Positions 5,898-48,720 of a stretch of 64,000 bases of DNA are shown in pieces. The position numbers were made by a program, and so were the translations under genes. The notes under the pieces were generated by a model. The model was not told the DNA's origin. It saw only the letters and a list, made by a program, of their open reading frames with translations, and made no database searches. The stretch is from contig BEHR01000004.1 of assembly GCA_002898555.1 (NCBI GenBank), positions 1-64,000 on the forward strand, in the 5' to 3' direction. Every line of letters begins with the position of its first letter. Positions within the stretch are counted from its first letter, which is position 1. This DNA is from a bacterium HR15. Its GTDB lineage: Bacteria > Armatimonadota > Fimbriimonadia > Fimbriimonadales > GBS-DC.

Positions 5898-6419
5898 GTG
5901 AGCGAGAAACACGAAATTATCCAGATATTTCTGGACGAGTATCCTGCTCATCTTGATTTTTTGGTGGCAGAGCAAGTGTGCGACGAACCTTGGATACAGA
6001 CTTCGCCAACTACGGGTATGATACTCTACAAAGTTCGAGGAGTAGATGTTGCCCTTGAGCTGAGCCTTGATGTGCGTGATGCGGTAGTCACCGCATATAT
6101 TTCGTTGTTTTCAGAGGCAGTAAAGCCAGACGTAGGGAGGGTCAGTGGCGGTCGCGTGGTGAGGTTACTTTTATGGGACATTTTGCCCGTCCTTGCCCAG
6201 CAAATACCCGATTTGGCGGAAGATTTCCAGCAGTGGAAAGCTACTTGGAAACAATATTACAACAGAGTGTATCGTTTTCTAAAGGCTCTCAGAGAGCCAG
6301 AGCCAGAGGTAGTGCGGGACTTGTTTCGCGCTGATGCTCAGCATTTGGCTTTGATAATGCGTAGATATGGATCTTCGGTGATTGAATATGGGCAAAGATA
6401 TTGGCACTTGACGGGGTAA
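5898..6419 (+). CDS. Candidate immunity protein for the upstream toxin tip
   Basis: A 173-residue soluble protein starting at GTG 5898 with GGAGG at 5884-5888. It has no signal peptide and is rich in helix-forming acidic segments (DILPVLAQQIPDLAEDF, LKALREPEPEVVRDLF). I recognise no family. The assignment rests on position: it lies 71 bp behind a polymorphic-toxin C-terminal module on the same strand, where immunity genes normally lie, and it is small and acidic. It stays intact although the toxin is interrupted, which fits a retained protective gene. An unrelated cassette protein is the alternative. Confidence 0.45.
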   Translation: MSEKHEIIQIFLDEYPAHLDFLVAEQVCDEPWIQTSPTTGMILYKVRGVDVALELSLDVRDAVVTAYISLFSEAVKPDVGRVSGGRVVRLLLWDILPVLAQQIPDLAEDFQQWKATWKQYYNRVYRFLKALREPEPEVVRDLFRADAQHLALIMRRYGSSVIEYGQRYWHLTG

Positions 6420-6560
6420 GACAGGTATAATCGGGTATCAAGTCCTTGCGCAAGCGAGCAGTTTAGTGTGGCTTAGACGCGCTCACTCGTTTGCTGCTCG
6501 TTCCATCATCCGAGTAGAGCAGCGTTCTCCGTTTAGCCGAGAGGTCATCGACATAGATCT

Positions 6561-6645
6561 CTAAACCGATGATGCGCTCTGGGCATAGCAGGAAGAGCGC
6601 GAGGGATGGGGTAGAATATCGGAGGGGGTGCAAAAAATGATGCGT
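6561..6645 (+). promoter_or_regulatory. Duplicated promoter/RBS block, copy 2 (drives the 6637 gene)
   Basis: Near-identical to 4544-4627. TAGAAT lies at about 6612-6617 and GGAGG at 6621-6625, with tandem ATG codons at 6637 and 6640. It contains the same GATGATGCGCTC motif and the run GCATAGCAGGAAGAGCGCGA. Confidence 0.65.
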
Positions 6646-7860
6646 TTCAGTCAATCATCGGCACCGACAATCGAAGCAATCGCTGTCCCTTCCGTTGTAG
6701 AAATACGCCTGAATGTTGAAAATATTCGCAACAAGGAGGGCTACCCATTCGTACGCTTCCTGTACAAATACAAAAACAATCCGTGGGAAGAGCAAGATGG
6801 ACTCTATATCGCCCAGTTATTTCCCGTGAAAGACATACAAATCTCTCACGATGACAAATATCTTTTGATTGTATCGGATTATCATGTCTATCTGATTGAC
6901 CTCACGAGACCGTTCGCACAGCGTCGGCAACGCATCCTGACCGAAGATCCACACGACTGTGCTTTTTCCCCCAACACACGCATGCTGTGGGCGTACAACT
7001 GTGTCAAACATCACTTAGCCGTGTTCCATCTGGACACAGGCCGGCGTCAAATCATCGCCCGTGACGGAGCCTTCTTCGGCGGTTGGTATCCCGACAGTCG
7101 GCACATTTGGTATCTCCGTACTTCGCCGCCAGGCGAGGCATTTGATCGGGACAGGGGGGCTTCGCGTCGCACTGCGTGGGTGGTGCCCCCCCAAGGGTAT
7201 CGACAGGATCGCTCGTGGCGGCTCTTGGCTCGGTTGCCTGCGCATAGGTGGGCACAAAGGTCTGAGACGCAGACGCCCGAAGGCACGGTGGATGAGTTGT
7301 ATGAATACAATGTGTTGACGGGCAGGCGTCGTGTTCTCTCGTACGAAGAATTAGCGAGCCGCTGGGACTTGCTGAACTCACGCTTCCGCTATGGTTCCTC
7401 TCTGCTTAATAGAGACGGCTCTTGGTACGGCTCCTGTGCCTATTCTCAGGGGGGAACCACACGCTTAGTCGCAACGGAGCTACTTGACCGCAAAATATCA
7501 GGCTCTCCTTGGTCGTTGAAGGTGGAGTGGCGGGATGGGCGGACGCGCTCGGTATGGCAAGCGGGTAGTCACGACTGGCAAGTGGTGGAGCCAGTGGATG
7601 TGTCGGATGATGGAGAGTGGGCGTTGGTGAAGGCGTATAAATTTAAGCCTGTGGAAACGGAGTTTGGATTAGACTGGAGTTATGATTTTCATGCCTATCT
7701 ATTGGTCAACACGCGCACTCGCCAAGAGGAGATACTGATTCGAGATGACCTTGAGGTTTTCGAGAATAAAGGGTGGTATTTTGTGGATGGTCCGTCGGGC
7801 GTTTGGTTTTGGAAGGTAGTTCGGCTCAGGTTTGTATATCCTACGGGTGCAAGGAGATGA
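6637..7860 (+). CDS. Beta-propeller (PD40/TolB-like) paralog C
   Basis: A 407-residue protein, the longest of the four paralogs. Blade motifs: IQISHDDKYLLIVSD, CAFSPNTRMLWAY, GGWYPDSRHIWYL, VSDDGEWALVKAY. Between blades it has an insertion rich in R and W (about residues 170-215) that A and B lack. ATG 6637 (or 6640) follows GGAGG at good spacing and is preferred to an upstream GTG at 6628. No export signal is visible. The FN3 fragment begins right after its stop. Function unknown; the family resemblance is structural only. Confidence 0.7.
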   Translation: MMRFSQSSAPTIEAIAVPSVVEIRLNVENIRNKEGYPFVRFLYKYKNNPWEEQDGLYIAQLFPVKDIQISHDDKYLLIVSDYHVYLIDLTRPFAQRRQRILTEDPHDCAFSPNTRMLWAYNCVKHHLAVFHLDTGRRQIIARDGAFFGGWYPDSRHIWYLRTSPPGEAFDRDRGASRRTAWVVPPQGYRQDRSWRLLARLPAHRWAQRSETQTPEGTVDELYEYNVLTGRRRVLSYEELASRWDLLNSRFRYGSSLLNRDGSWYGSCAYSQGGTTRLVATELLDRKISGSPWSLKVEWRDGRTRSVWQAGSHDWQVVEPVDVSDDGEWALVKAYKFKPVETEFGLDWSYDFHAYLLVNTRTRQEEILIRDDLEVFENKGWYFVDGPSGVWFWKVVRLRFVYPTGARR

Positions 7861-45480: not shown

Positions 45481-45502
45481 GAAAGCAAGGAGGGTTCTAA
45501 CG

Positions 45503-45712
45503 ATGAAGAACCAGAGTGCAGTTAAGGAAAAAGTCAAGCTGAACGGCGTCGAGTACGAGATCTCGCTCGCACCTGTTCTGCCTGAGACCACGAACGAGCC
45601 GTCTCGGAACCCAGCCATCATGCCTGCGGCACCGTCCACGCCCCAAGAGATCGTACGCCAAGCTCCTTCGGTGACGCAGCTCCCGCGTTGGGAAGACGGT
45701 GGCCTTCGCTAA
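45503..45712 (+). CDS. Candidate ubiquitin-like/tag protein ending Gly-Gly-Leu-Arg
   Basis: 69 residues from ATG 45503 (AAGGAGGG upstream). Residues 8-23 (KEKVKLNGVEYEISLA) could form a beta hairpin. Residues 25-60 are Pro/Ala/Thr-rich and look disordered. The C-terminus is PRWEDGGLR, with the di-glycine (G66-G67) followed by two residues, as in ubiquitin-like precursors that a JAMM or other peptidase must trim. The first-gene position before an E2, a JAMM-E1 fusion and accessory genes supports a modifier role. Against it: the chain is short and only half looks like a beta-grasp fold. It could instead be a disordered tag or an adaptor. Confidence 0.5.
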   Translation: MKNQSAVKEKVKLNGVEYEISLAPVLPETTNEPSRNPAIMPAAPSTPQEIVRQAPSVTQLPRWEDGGLR

Positions 45713-45744: not shown

Positions 45745-46191
45745 ATGAACGCGCGTTTGCAACGCATCGCGACGGAGGCAGCCCTTGCTGCCGTTCACTA
45801 TTCACAGACGAAGCAAGCCTCCTTTGATGACGAGGCAGGCTGCTGGGTCATTATCCACGACTTCCCTCTCCCACGCGGATATAACTACTCCTCGACCGAT
45901 GTGTTGATTCTGCTACCGCCCAGCTATCCTCAGACCCCACCCGACTGGTTCTATGTGGATTACAACCTGCGATTGGCGAACGGGCAGCGCCCGCCCCATG
46001 TGTTCTATGGCGACACCTCCTACGATCCCAACCGGCACCAGTTCCAGGAGGAACCGCCCTCGCTGAAAGGCTGGACCGCCTGTTGCCTACATATTCACTC
46101 GTGGAAACCTGCTGCGAACCCGCTGGCAGGACACTCCCTGCTTAGTGTCTGCGAACTGATTCAGAAAGCGTTTGAACGCTGGCGACGCTAA
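45745..46191 (+). CDS. E2-like ubiquitin-conjugating-fold protein (prokaryotic E2 family E type)
   Basis: 148 residues. Features of the prokaryotic E2 family E: GCWVIIHDFPLPRGYNYSST, the strand DVLILLPPSYPQTPPDWFYV with its P-x-x-Y-P-x-x-P-P motif, and NLRLANGQRPP. The C-terminal half is KGWTACCLHIHSWKP with candidate catalytic C113/C114 next to H116 and H118, then NPLAGHSLLSVCELIQKAFE. In this family an E2-like protein receives the modifier from a ThiF-type E1. Start ATG 45745 with AAGGTGGT upstream, 32 nt after the previous stop. Confidence 0.8.
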   Translation: MNARLQRIATEAALAAVHYSQTKQASFDDEAGCWVIIHDFPLPRGYNYSSTDVLILLPPSYPQTPPDWFYVDYNLRLANGQRPPHVFYGDTSYDPNRHQFQEEPPSLKGWTACCLHIHSWKPAANPLAGHSLLSVCELIQKAFERWRR

Positions 46192-46251: not shown

Positions 46252-47751
46252 ATGATGCAGCCATGGGGTGAAGTGCGAATCACGCGCTCGCTTTGGGCGC
46301 GGCTGGATGAGGTGCTTCTAACCGACCGAACGGTGGAGACGAAGTGCTTCATGCTCTGTCGCGTGCTGGAGCTACCGGGGCGAACGGTGTTCCTGGTGCG
46401 CGAGCTGATCGAAGTGCCGCCCGAGGGGTATGAAGAGCGCTCTGCCAGCCGGGTTATTACCCGGCGTGAATTCGTGCATCAGTTGCTGACACGCTGCGCC
46501 AACGAGGGTCTCTCCCTTTTGGAAGCTCACTCGCACCCCTGGGCGCCCCGACCACGGTTCTCTGCGATTGACCATCGCAGTGACTATCAGAAGTTCCTCG
46601 CTACCGAGAGGCTCTCGCCCCCCTTTCGGCACGGCACGCTTGTGTTCGGCTCCGACATGAGCTTCGACGGGCACATGTGGGACTATCTCCACCAGCAGAT
46701 CGTGCCGATTGAGCGAATTTGCATCGTGGGGATACCGTATGAGGCACGCTACATCGTCGGTGGTGCGCCTCCCGAACTGGACAAGGCGCAGCAGGAGCTG
46801 TACGACCGTCAGGTGCGCGCGCTGGGGGCAGCAGGGCAGGCGATCTTGAGCAACCTGCGCGTGGCGCTGGTGGGCGCAGGCGGGCTTGGCTCCCAGATGG
46901 CGCAAGCGTTGACCCTGTTAGGCGTTGGCGAGATTGTGTTGATTGACCCTGATCGGCTGGAACTTAGCAATCTGAATCGGGTGGTGGGAGCCACCTGGGC
47001 GCGTGCCTGCCGCCGATGGCGCAAGGTCAAAGCGCTGGCGCAGAGCCTTAATCGCACACGCCCACCCGATTCACCCGCGATTATCCCGCTGGCACAAGAT
47101 GCCCGCGTGCCCGACTTGTTGCCGGTGTTGCTGGAATGCGACCTGCTGATTGGCGCGGTGGATAGCGCGACGGTGCGCCAATACCTGAACCTCGTCGCGG
47201 TGTGTGCCCTGAAACCCTATCTGGATGCAGGAGTCGGTATTCGTGCCGAATCGGGGCGCATTGTGCAGGGCGGCGGGCAAGTACAAGTGGTGCTGCCGGG
47301 CGAGACCGCCTGCCTCGCCTGCGTCGGACACCTCGTGCGCCAGAGCGTGGAAGAGCAACTCACACCCGAACAGCGCGCGATGTCCATCCAACATGGCTAC
47401 ATTCAAGGCGAGCGGATACCGAACCCGCAAGTAGTGTTTCTGAACGGTGTTGTGGCGAACCTGCTGGCGTGGGAGTTCGTTAAACTCTGCACAGGTTGCT
47501 TGCCCGTGCAGCCCTATGTGTACTACGACCTGGTGAATCAGCAAGTGTTTCCTGCCCTTGCGGAGCGCCACCCGGACTGCTTTCTGTGCTCGGAGCAGGA
47601 GGGCAGCCTGCTGGCGACCGGTCTGGAGGGCATTTGCGGTTTCCTGACACCTGCACGACGCAGCCCGCCACCTGCTCCACGCCCAAGGAGCCAGCCGGTC
47701 CCACCTGACTCGTTTAACCCGTCGGACATGTCTGACCCGTCTAACTGTTAG
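46252..47751 (+). CDS. JAMM (JAB) peptidase fused to a ThiF-type E1 adenylyltransferase
   Basis: 499 residues. N-terminal JAB domain (1-170): candidate Glu at 29 and the JAMM zinc motif AHSHPWAPRPRFSAID (H93, H95, S104, D107). C-terminal E1 domain (185-450): nucleotide loop RVALVGAGGLGSQMAQAL (G208-G213), VLIDPDRLELSNLNR, DLLIGAVDSATVRQYL, zinc ligands C354/C357 and C443/C446 (CLAC, CFLC). A Pro/Ser-rich tail of about 30 residues follows. In related operons the peptidase trims or removes the modifier and the E1 adenylates its C-terminal Gly with ATP. It lies between the E2 and zinc-module genes. Confidence 0.88.
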   Translation: MMQPWGEVRITRSLWARLDEVLLTDRTVETKCFMLCRVLELPGRTVFLVRELIEVPPEGYEERSASRVITRREFVHQLLTRCANEGLSLLEAHSHPWAPRPRFSAIDHRSDYQKFLATERLSPPFRHGTLVFGSDMSFDGHMWDYLHQQIVPIERICIVGIPYEARYIVGGAPPELDKAQQELYDRQVRALGAAGQAILSNLRVALVGAGGLGSQMAQALTLLGVGEIVLIDPDRLELSNLNRVVGATWARACRRWRKVKALAQSLNRTRPPDSPAIIPLAQDARVPDLLPVLLECDLLIGAVDSATVRQYLNLVAVCALKPYLDAGVGIRAESGRIVQGGGQVQVVLPGETACLACVGHLVRQSVEEQLTPEQRAMSIQHGYIQGERIPNPQVVFLNGVVANLLAWEFVKLCTGCLPVQPYVYYDLVNQQVFPALAERHPDCFLCSEQEGSLLATGLEGICGFLTPARRSPPPAPRPRSQPVPPDSFNPSDMSDPSNC

Positions 47752-47759
47752 AAACTACA

Positions 47760-48239
47760 ATGAAACCTATTCCGCCGAATCGTCGCTGGGAAGAACACAA
47801 GGTACAGCACCCGGAAGCGAGGCTTCCTGCACCATCGGACGAAATCTGCGTGATGGGGGCGCTCGCGGAGCCACCTATTATTCTCGCACGTTACGCGGGC
47901 ACATGCCCGGCTTGCCGTCATGTCATCCTGCCCGGCATGCCCATTACGCGCCATGCCCACGCCCATCGCTGGGTGCATGCCGAGTGTCGCAACGCCCCCC
48001 TCGCCCCCAGTTTCCCCGCGCGCTACCACGGTGTCTGCCGTGCCTGCCAACAGCCGATCCATGTGGGTGAGTTCATCGCTCGCGATGCCGATTACGGCTG
48101 GGTACATCACCAGTGCCTGCGCAACCATCACCTCTCTATCGATAGAGAGGCAGTGCTGGCGGAAATCGACGCTATTATCCGCGAGCTGATGAACATGCTT
48201 GAGGAGGTTGAGGGGGGGAGTGAGTTCAATGGCAGGTAG
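47760..48239 (+). CDS. Protein with two tandem CCHC zinc modules and N-terminal PIPPNRRW motif
   Basis: 159 residues. The N-terminus MKPIPPNRRW is shared with the next protein. Two similar modules: YAGTCPACRHVILPGMPI ... WVHAEC (C49, C52, H73, C76) and YHGVCRACQQPIHVGEFI ... WVHHQC (C93, C96, H116, C119). The layout Y-x-G-x-C-x2-C-x3-I-x2-G-x-x-I ... W-V-H-x2-C is a treble-clef-like zinc finger. A C-terminal acidic helix (AVLAEIDAIIRELMNMLEEV) follows. It starts 8 nt after the E1 stop. It could be a substrate adaptor or E3-like factor of the conjugation system; that is inference, and it is not a recognisable RING. Confidence 0.65.
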   Translation: MKPIPPNRRWEEHKVQHPEARLPAPSDEICVMGALAEPPIILARYAGTCPACRHVILPGMPITRHAHAHRWVHAECRNAPLAPSFPARYHGVCRACQQPIHVGEFIARDADYGWVHHQCLRNHHLSIDREAVLAEIDAIIRELMNMLEEVEGGSEFNGR

Positions 48240-48720
48240 ACCCATCCCCCCAAACCGCCGCTGGAGGCAGAATCGGTTGCCTCGAACCCCACCGCCTGAG
48301 CCGAGCACGCGAGAAGTCCCACCAGATGATCTGCTCTGGAACTACATCCTCATTTCATCGCATCGCCGCCCTGCACGCCGAAGATCATGGGCACAAAGTA
48401 TCCTCTGGGGCATCCTCCAGATCGCGCTCATCTTCGCGCTCTCTTGGAGCATCGGCGAATTGCTGGGGTTTCTATCGCCCCATAAAGATTCGCCTCCTAT
48501 CCTCACGATACATCCATCCGCACCGAGCACGGATGACCCTGCTCTCCATGAAGATTCGCCCCAGGCAACGGACGACCCCACTCTTCATGAAGATTCGCCC
48601 CAGGCAACGGATGACCCTGCTCTCCACGAAGATTCGCCCCAGGCAACGGATGACCCCGCTCTCCATGAAGATTCGCCCCAGGTAACGGAAGCGCCATCAA
48701 ACACGGAGACAACGCCATAG
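48229..48720 (+). CDS. Single-pass membrane protein with PIPPNRRW motif and four 13-residue repeats
   Basis: 163 residues from ATG 48229 (GGGGGAG upstream), overlapping the previous gene by 11 nt. Order: MAGRPIPPNRRW, a basic Pro-rich segment, one transmembrane helix at about 56-82 (SILWGILQIALIFALSWSIG), then an acidic tail with four repeats (DDPALHEDSPQAT and variants) at about 102-153. The positive N-terminal side suggests N-in, so the repeats would face outward. No lysine-rich acceptor region is evident. Possible roles: membrane anchor for the conjugation machinery, or its substrate. Confidence 0.65.
   Translation: MAGRPIPPNRRWRQNRLPRTPPPEPSTREVPPDDLLWNYILISSHRRPARRRSWAQSILWGILQIALIFALSWSIGELLGFLSPHKDSPPILTIHPSAPSTDDPALHEDSPQATDDPTLHEDSPQATDDPALHEDSPQATDDPALHEDSPQVTEAPSNTETTP
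48532..48687. repeat. Four tandem 39-bp units
   Basis: GAYGACCCYRCTCTYCAYGA followed by AGATTCGCCCCAGGYAACG, four times in frame. Third-position differences between units show that the repeats are not freshly amplified. Confidence 0.9.

Follow-up and report, generated by a model that had tools for sequence, protein, structure and literature searches.

Apparent loss of the compact ubiquitin fold in a short modifier candidate, reduced to a hairpin and a single-glycine tail, from a Bub-type operon of a hot-spring bacterium

RESULTS AND DISCUSSION

The presumed protein tag of a hot-spring bacterium, HR15, appears to have kept only a short β-hairpin and a reactive single-glycine tail, while the compact ubiquitin fold has seemingly been lost. 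The candidate is encoded by the first of five plus-strand genes (modifier, E2, JAB-E1, twin treble-clef protein, and a probable membrane protein) in the 64,000-nucleotide stretch of DNA that was analyzed, here called the window. We give a probability of roughly 70% to the reading that it is a reduced BubA equivalent of a Bub-type operon, made up of a hairpin, a disordered linker, and an adenylation tail and matured by the JAB domain after a single glycine. A β-grasp fold is what one expects of the modifiers in E1/E2 systems. The bolder proposal, that the β-grasp is wholly lost and that E1, E2, and JAMM enzymes activate a disordered, Pup-like tag read through LPxWEDG and the hairpin, we hold tentatively, at slightly under even odds.

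Short modifier gene and its orthologs

The features of the modifier gene are as follows.
45487 to 45494, plus strand: Shine-Dalgarno-like sequence AAGGAGGG, 8 nt 5' of the modifier ATG, from sequence
45503 to 45712, plus strand: modifier gene (P0001, proposed BubA equivalent), 69 amino acids (aa), stop included, from orthologs and dN/dS
45521 to 45568, plus strand: predicted β-hairpin, residues 7 to 22, the sole predicted structure, from AlphaFold2 and a conserved block in the ortholog alignment
45569 to 45679, plus strand: Pro/Ala/Thr-rich linker, residues 23 to 59, with no predicted secondary structure, from AlphaFold2 and composition
45680 to 45700, plus strand: tail LPRWEDG, residues 60 to 66, with L60, P61, W63, D65, and G66 invariant
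45698 to 45700, plus strand: Gly66, invariant in the ortholog alignment and presumably adenylated
45701 to 45709, plus strand: variable end GLR, predicted to be trimmed by JAB, matching 0 to 4 variable residues in orthologs

The modifier ORF is a real, conserved gene under purifying selection. Orthologs upstream of E2 in 18 other loci and a median pairwise dN/dS of 0.16 (159 pairs with usable dS) place it beyond chance. TTGACA and TATTAT sequences lie 5' of the gene, but their spacing is too close for a standard promoter, and a promoter scan found none there.

Orthologs were reached through the E2 gene, relatives of which were found in 22 of 291 genomes of the phylum. A short ORF was found immediately 5' of E2 in 17 further loci of the HR15 family and in one locus of another family (G059). 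When 201 genomes of the phylum were searched with P0001 alone, only weak matches were obtained (E values of at least 9e-4), those in G007 and G059 lying on contigs other than the ones that carry their E2 loci. The resulting alignment, A1, comprises 19 modifiers from 15 Armatimonadota genomes (the window, the 17 same-family loci, and G059), and M1, E9, V11, N14, P24, L60, P61, W63, D65, and G66 are invariant in all 19. The modifiers span 54 to 70 aa, the most distant member being that of G059, which is 54 aa long and ends exactly at LPVWEDG. The near relatives are metagenome-assembled genomes of Armatimonadota, several of them Fimbriimonadales.

A profile of the modifier found 18 copies in 18 HR15-family genomes, a single one at each E2 locus and no others, and the modifier is absent from all four HR15-family genomes without E2 (G163, G168, G173, and G174). 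Contigs searched with the E2 alignment yielded 17 loci, every one from an HR15-family genome. No relatives were found among viral contigs and no match among phages, and the plasmid matches examined were either canonical Bub operons or Bub-like ones whose modifiers are longer. Beyond Armatimonadota, taxonomic searches of limited breadth turned up no short modifier. It is known from two lineages of one phylum only.

Several loci depart from this arrangement. Second loci in G164 (L070) and G161 (L074) consist of modifier and E2 only, with no adjoining E1 or treble-clef gene, so that two modifier-E2 pairs apparently share a single E1. At L077 (G061; 6300 to 7000), a modifier ending LPVWESG and its E2 are apparently frameshifted, through either decay of the copy or an assembly error. 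In G007 (L078, from 5788 onward in the orientation of E2), a β-grasp-type modifier is fused in frame to E2, and the junction carries a single glycine (FRWG). The haloarchaeal plasmids of Natrinema (L123) and Salinigranum (L127) hold Bub-like operons with modifiers of 80 to 86 aa and a Cys-type E2.

Operon enzymes

45745 to 46191, plus strand: E2-like protein (Prok-E2_E, BubB-like), 148 aa, from PF14462 and Citrobacter BubB
46255 to 47751, plus strand: JAB-E1 fusion (BubCD-like), 498 aa, from ThiF (2.8e-38) and Citrobacter BubCD
46522 to 46572, plus strand: JAMM motif of JAB-E1, signature HSHP...S..D intact
46873 to 46893, plus strand: GxGGxG of JAB-E1, from sequence motif
47311 to 47322 and 47578 to 47589, plus strand: Zn CxxC pairs of JAB-E1, from sequence motif

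The E2 matches PF14462 (2.5e-15; 56.7 bits against a cutoff of 25), and its closest solved structure by sequence is Citrobacter BubB (E value, 1.8e-6). It carries CCLH at residues 113 to 116. The motif is Cys-Cys-Leu-His in the short-modifier clade, except for Cys-Ser-Leu-His in G059, and at the same site many canonical Bub E2s have Ser-x-His, while the haloarchaea and G007 have Cys-x-His. This alternation beside a conserved histidine makes a Cys or Ser nucleophile plausible there.

JAB-E1 is closest among solved structures, by sequence, to Citrobacter BubCD (9ea4; E value, 1.5e-23; residues 9 to 416). Its JAB domain scores under the Pfam cutoff, yet the motif HSHPWAPRPRFSAID is complete, and both the JAMM and the adenylation motifs are conserved. 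The original prediction had proposed a modifier candidate in an operon encoding a JAMM peptidase, and both points hold: the adjoining JAB-E1 carries the intact signature, and the BubCD-like and BubB-like enzymes, together with the place of the ORF in the operon, support a modifier. In a tree of 20 JAB-E1s, the short-modifier loci form one clade (100/100), within which G059 branches first, and this clade sits among JAB-E1s that are partnered with β-grasp modifiers. The midpoint root serves for drawing only and support for the deeper branches is weak; a secondary loss of the fold is thus the probable, though unproven, direction.

JAB-E1 is present in 15 of the 18 HR15-family genomes, and the surroundings of the operon, from a reading of the ORFs, are varied and of housekeeping type. 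Together these point to a permanent role in the cell more than to a mobile defense cassette.

C-terminal glycine

The 69-aa product does end in LPRWEDGGLR, as had been noted, but the Gly-Gly on which the original prediction built is not conserved and is ruled out as a functional signature. Gly66 is invariant (19 of 19) within a C-terminal LPxW[E/Q]DG that is followed by 0 to 4 variable residues and the end of the protein. The next residue is Ala in 12 modifiers, Gly in 5, Thr in 1, and none in 1, and beyond Gly66 no sequence is conserved. Because the second glycine is missing from 14 of 19, the conserved processing point would fall after a single glycine (WEDG|GLR, not DGG|LR), and since the G059 protein stops at WEDG, what is conserved is a lone terminal glycine, to which a removable extension may be added. 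As judged from the alignment, the Gly-Gly of the window belongs among the variable tails. Thus, the trimmable end survives, as does the idea of a modifier with a C-terminal glycine, while the di-glycine itself is refuted by the orthologs.

Canonical BubAs encoded on plasmids and in the same phylum have comparable tails (PPATFG|LR, PPATFG|RS, PPATFG|GGV, PPATFG|HGNH, and RVKG|GC), and others end at the glycine (KANFG, VFG, or TTEG). A proline five residues before the glycine (P-x4-G) is found in many single-domain BubAs and in all 19 short modifiers; the match is short and not universal, as the tails of haloarchaeal and TTEG-type BubAs differ.

Fold of the modifier

Described BubAs carry one to three β-grasp domains. 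In the modifier of the window, no β-grasp was found by either Pfam or AlphaFold2. P0001 matched 0 Pfam families, Multi_ubiq (PF14452) included, and a PDB profile search with it returned nothing meaningful (best E value, 0.027, to TyrR). AlphaFold2, run on the protein alone with A1 as input, predicted strands at residues 7 to 13 and 16 to 22 and nothing else (mean pLDDT, 66.5; pTM, 0.25); A1 is shallow and of low diversity, and on such an alignment AlphaFold2 can miss a fold. The earlier description of a mostly disordered protein with one hairpin and a Pro/Thr/Ala-rich middle agrees with this model and with the composition of residues 23 to 60 (8 P, 5 A, and 4 T of 38).

As a positive control we used the 70-aa BubA of G275, from the same phylum, with an alignment of 7 sequences. 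Its model (pLDDT, 81.5; pTM, 0.60) has the strand-strand-helix-strands order of a β-grasp and a floppy tail. Foldseek placed it best with the bacterial multi-ubiquitin proteins 9cd2, 9d5a, and 9d59 (probability, 1.00; TM by query length, 0.67 to 0.79; E values, only 0.017 to 0.08), with ThiS among the next matches. Length alone therefore permits the fold; the composition of the window modifier does not.

Profile comparison of short modifiers with canonical BubAs gave an alignment confined to the hairpin (14 columns; probability, 3%; E value, 0.015), and homology of the two is not demonstrable by sequence. The alignment fits a protein whose core was lost and whose hairpin and tail were kept, and is no proof of it.

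Proposed mechanism

In the proposed scheme, the JAB domain of JAB-E1 would remove the 0 to 4 residues beyond Gly66 to give an end at WEDG, the ThiF/E1 domain would adenylate Gly66, and the E2-like protein would receive Gly66 or position it to be joined to an amine or hydroxyl on a target, from which the JAB domain might later be able to remove the modifier. The main handle for E1 would be the tail rather than a globular β-grasp face, and the hairpin would dock on E1 or E2. Processing, adenylation, conjugation, targets, and docking mode are all inferred from motifs, conservation, and gene context.

If the protein is truly conjugated and has no β-grasp, the fold is dispensable for adenylation by E1 and for transfer, and the pathway can be specified by the tail alone. 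The operon would then offer a minimal setting in which to ask what the enzymes require of a ubiquitin-like protein. It would also link disordered Pup-type tags with ubiquitin-type tags driven by E1 and E2, two kinds of modifier that are usually treated separately, within a genome encoding a UBact/Pup-type system as well.

Alternative explanations

An ordinary Bub modifier, with a β-grasp that is very degenerate or is completed upon binding E1, E2, or a second copy of itself, would retain the fold expected of BubA. The predicted hairpin does sit at the place of β1-β2 in BubA and is the sole profile match, and AlphaFold2 was run without a partner and on a shallow alignment. Against this, the 70-aa control gave a β-grasp from an even shallower alignment, and about 37 proline-rich residues lie between hairpin and tail. 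With the G059 member only 54 residues long in total, little material is left for a helix and three more strands, and we regard such a hidden fold as unlikely. It is even less probable, although by little, that the protein is a small regulator or adaptor, such as an inhibitory or tethering peptide bound to E1 or E2, with LPxWEDG as a docking motif and the enzymes acting on the C terminus of another protein. Short linear motifs with a conserved tryptophan are common docking elements, and a conserved C terminus might, by itself, likewise be a binding motif. PIPxNRRW, common to the two downstream proteins and absent elsewhere in HR15-family genomes, suggests that motif-based assembly may operate in the operon. 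A regulator, however, would occupy exactly the place of the modifier in canonical Bub operons, and its last invariant residue would be a glycine ahead of a variable tail open to trimming, just as canonical BubAs have, in a set of 18 HR15-family genomes where the multiubiquitin family supplies no further modifier candidate.

That last result also bears on the suggestion, made in the original prediction, that another gene may encode the true ubiquitin-like protein, in which case the ORF of the window would be an accessory. The search covered PF14452, and ThiS/MoaD-type and some small β-grasp families lie outside that family. PF14452 was found in 0 of the 18 HR15-family genomes, and the ORF is paired strictly one to one with E2, even in the E1-less cassettes of G161 and G164. 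We consider this suggestion unsupported and very improbable.

Comparison with known systems

The Bub system consists of BubA, BubB, and BubCD (PDB entries 9ea4, 9ea5, 9eae, and 9eav; Ye et al. and Gong et al., as cited in PMC13373217 and PMC12687455), and its operons are described as putative immune pathways for which phage protection is not yet shown (PMC13373217). The window operon shares the order modifier-E2-JAB-E1, has in Bub proteins the best PDB sequence matches of its JAB-E1 and E2, and has, like Bub, a C-terminal single glycine with a short variable tail. In the window and in the 18 orthologous loci the modifier lies directly 5' of E2, as in canonical Bub operons. Unlike described BubAs, the window modifier has no predicted β-grasp; where many plasmid Bub operons have a DUF6527 gene, the window operon has the twin treble-clef protein instead; and, in contrast to Bub operons, it stands among housekeeping-type genes and is found in most HR15-family genomes.

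Operon type 6e encodes a polyUbl, an E2/RWD-like protein, a JAB-E1 fusion, and a metal-binding protein Y (Iyer, Burroughs, and Aravind 2006; PMC1779556). The window operon is of a similar kind and has equivalents of the four components, that of protein Y being a probable one; the polyUbl is replaced by the 54- to 70-aa hairpin-plus-tail protein, and the E2, unlike that of type 6e, has a cysteine two positions before the conserved histidine. With PF14452 the modifier shares its place in the operon, the N-terminal hairpin, and, for single-domain members, the P-x4-G tail, whereas the family match, the helix, and strands 3 to 5 are absent.

Pup and UBact are likewise small, largely disordered protein modifiers, but they use PafA/Dop and end in Glu or Gln, in contrast to the E1/E2/JAMM enzymes and the glycine with a variable tail in the window. 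Identity of the ORF with Pup or UBact is ruled out by WEDG with its variable tail and by the Pup-ligase genes lying on another contig. There (C1 of HR15, G000; L200; 133771 to 138599), two Pup-ligase-family proteins accompany a 62-aa UBact-like ORF (136915 to 137103, ending RSGE), which gives HR15 a Pup/UBact-type system in addition to its Bub-type operon. Pup-ligase-type genes occur in 17 of 18 HR15-family genomes. This system is separate and does not account for the ORF of the window.

Bil and type II CBASS (Cap2/Cap3) rely on E1, E2, and JAB enzymes acting on a C-terminal glycine, the chemistry proposed for the window operon. Their E1/E2 architectures differ from that of the window, in which the PADLOC E1-E2 models match the adenylation domain only.

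Downstream genes

47760 to 48239, plus strand: twin treble-clef-type protein P0004, with Cys/His pairs and an N-terminal PIPPNRRW, from sequence motifs
48229 to 48720, plus strand: 163-aa protein with an N-terminal PIPPNRRW and one transmembrane-like stretch, read from sequence

P0004, which has only weak Pfam matches and no match to DUF6527, is probably the counterpart of the type 6e metal-binding protein, and the 163-aa product is probably a membrane protein. PIPPNRRW is encoded at 47766 to 47789 and at 48241 to 48264. Across HR15-family genomes, PIPxNRRW was found in the downstream proteins of the operon only, which rules it out as a mark of genome-wide clients. The downstream protein bearing this motif may be an adaptor or E3-like factor, although this is a guess. 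A similar KPIPxPRG is borne by the C termini of E1s in relatives. Within the gene of the probable membrane protein lies a 39-bp tandem repeat in 4.1 copies, in which DPALHEDSPQAT recurs (48529 to 48689).
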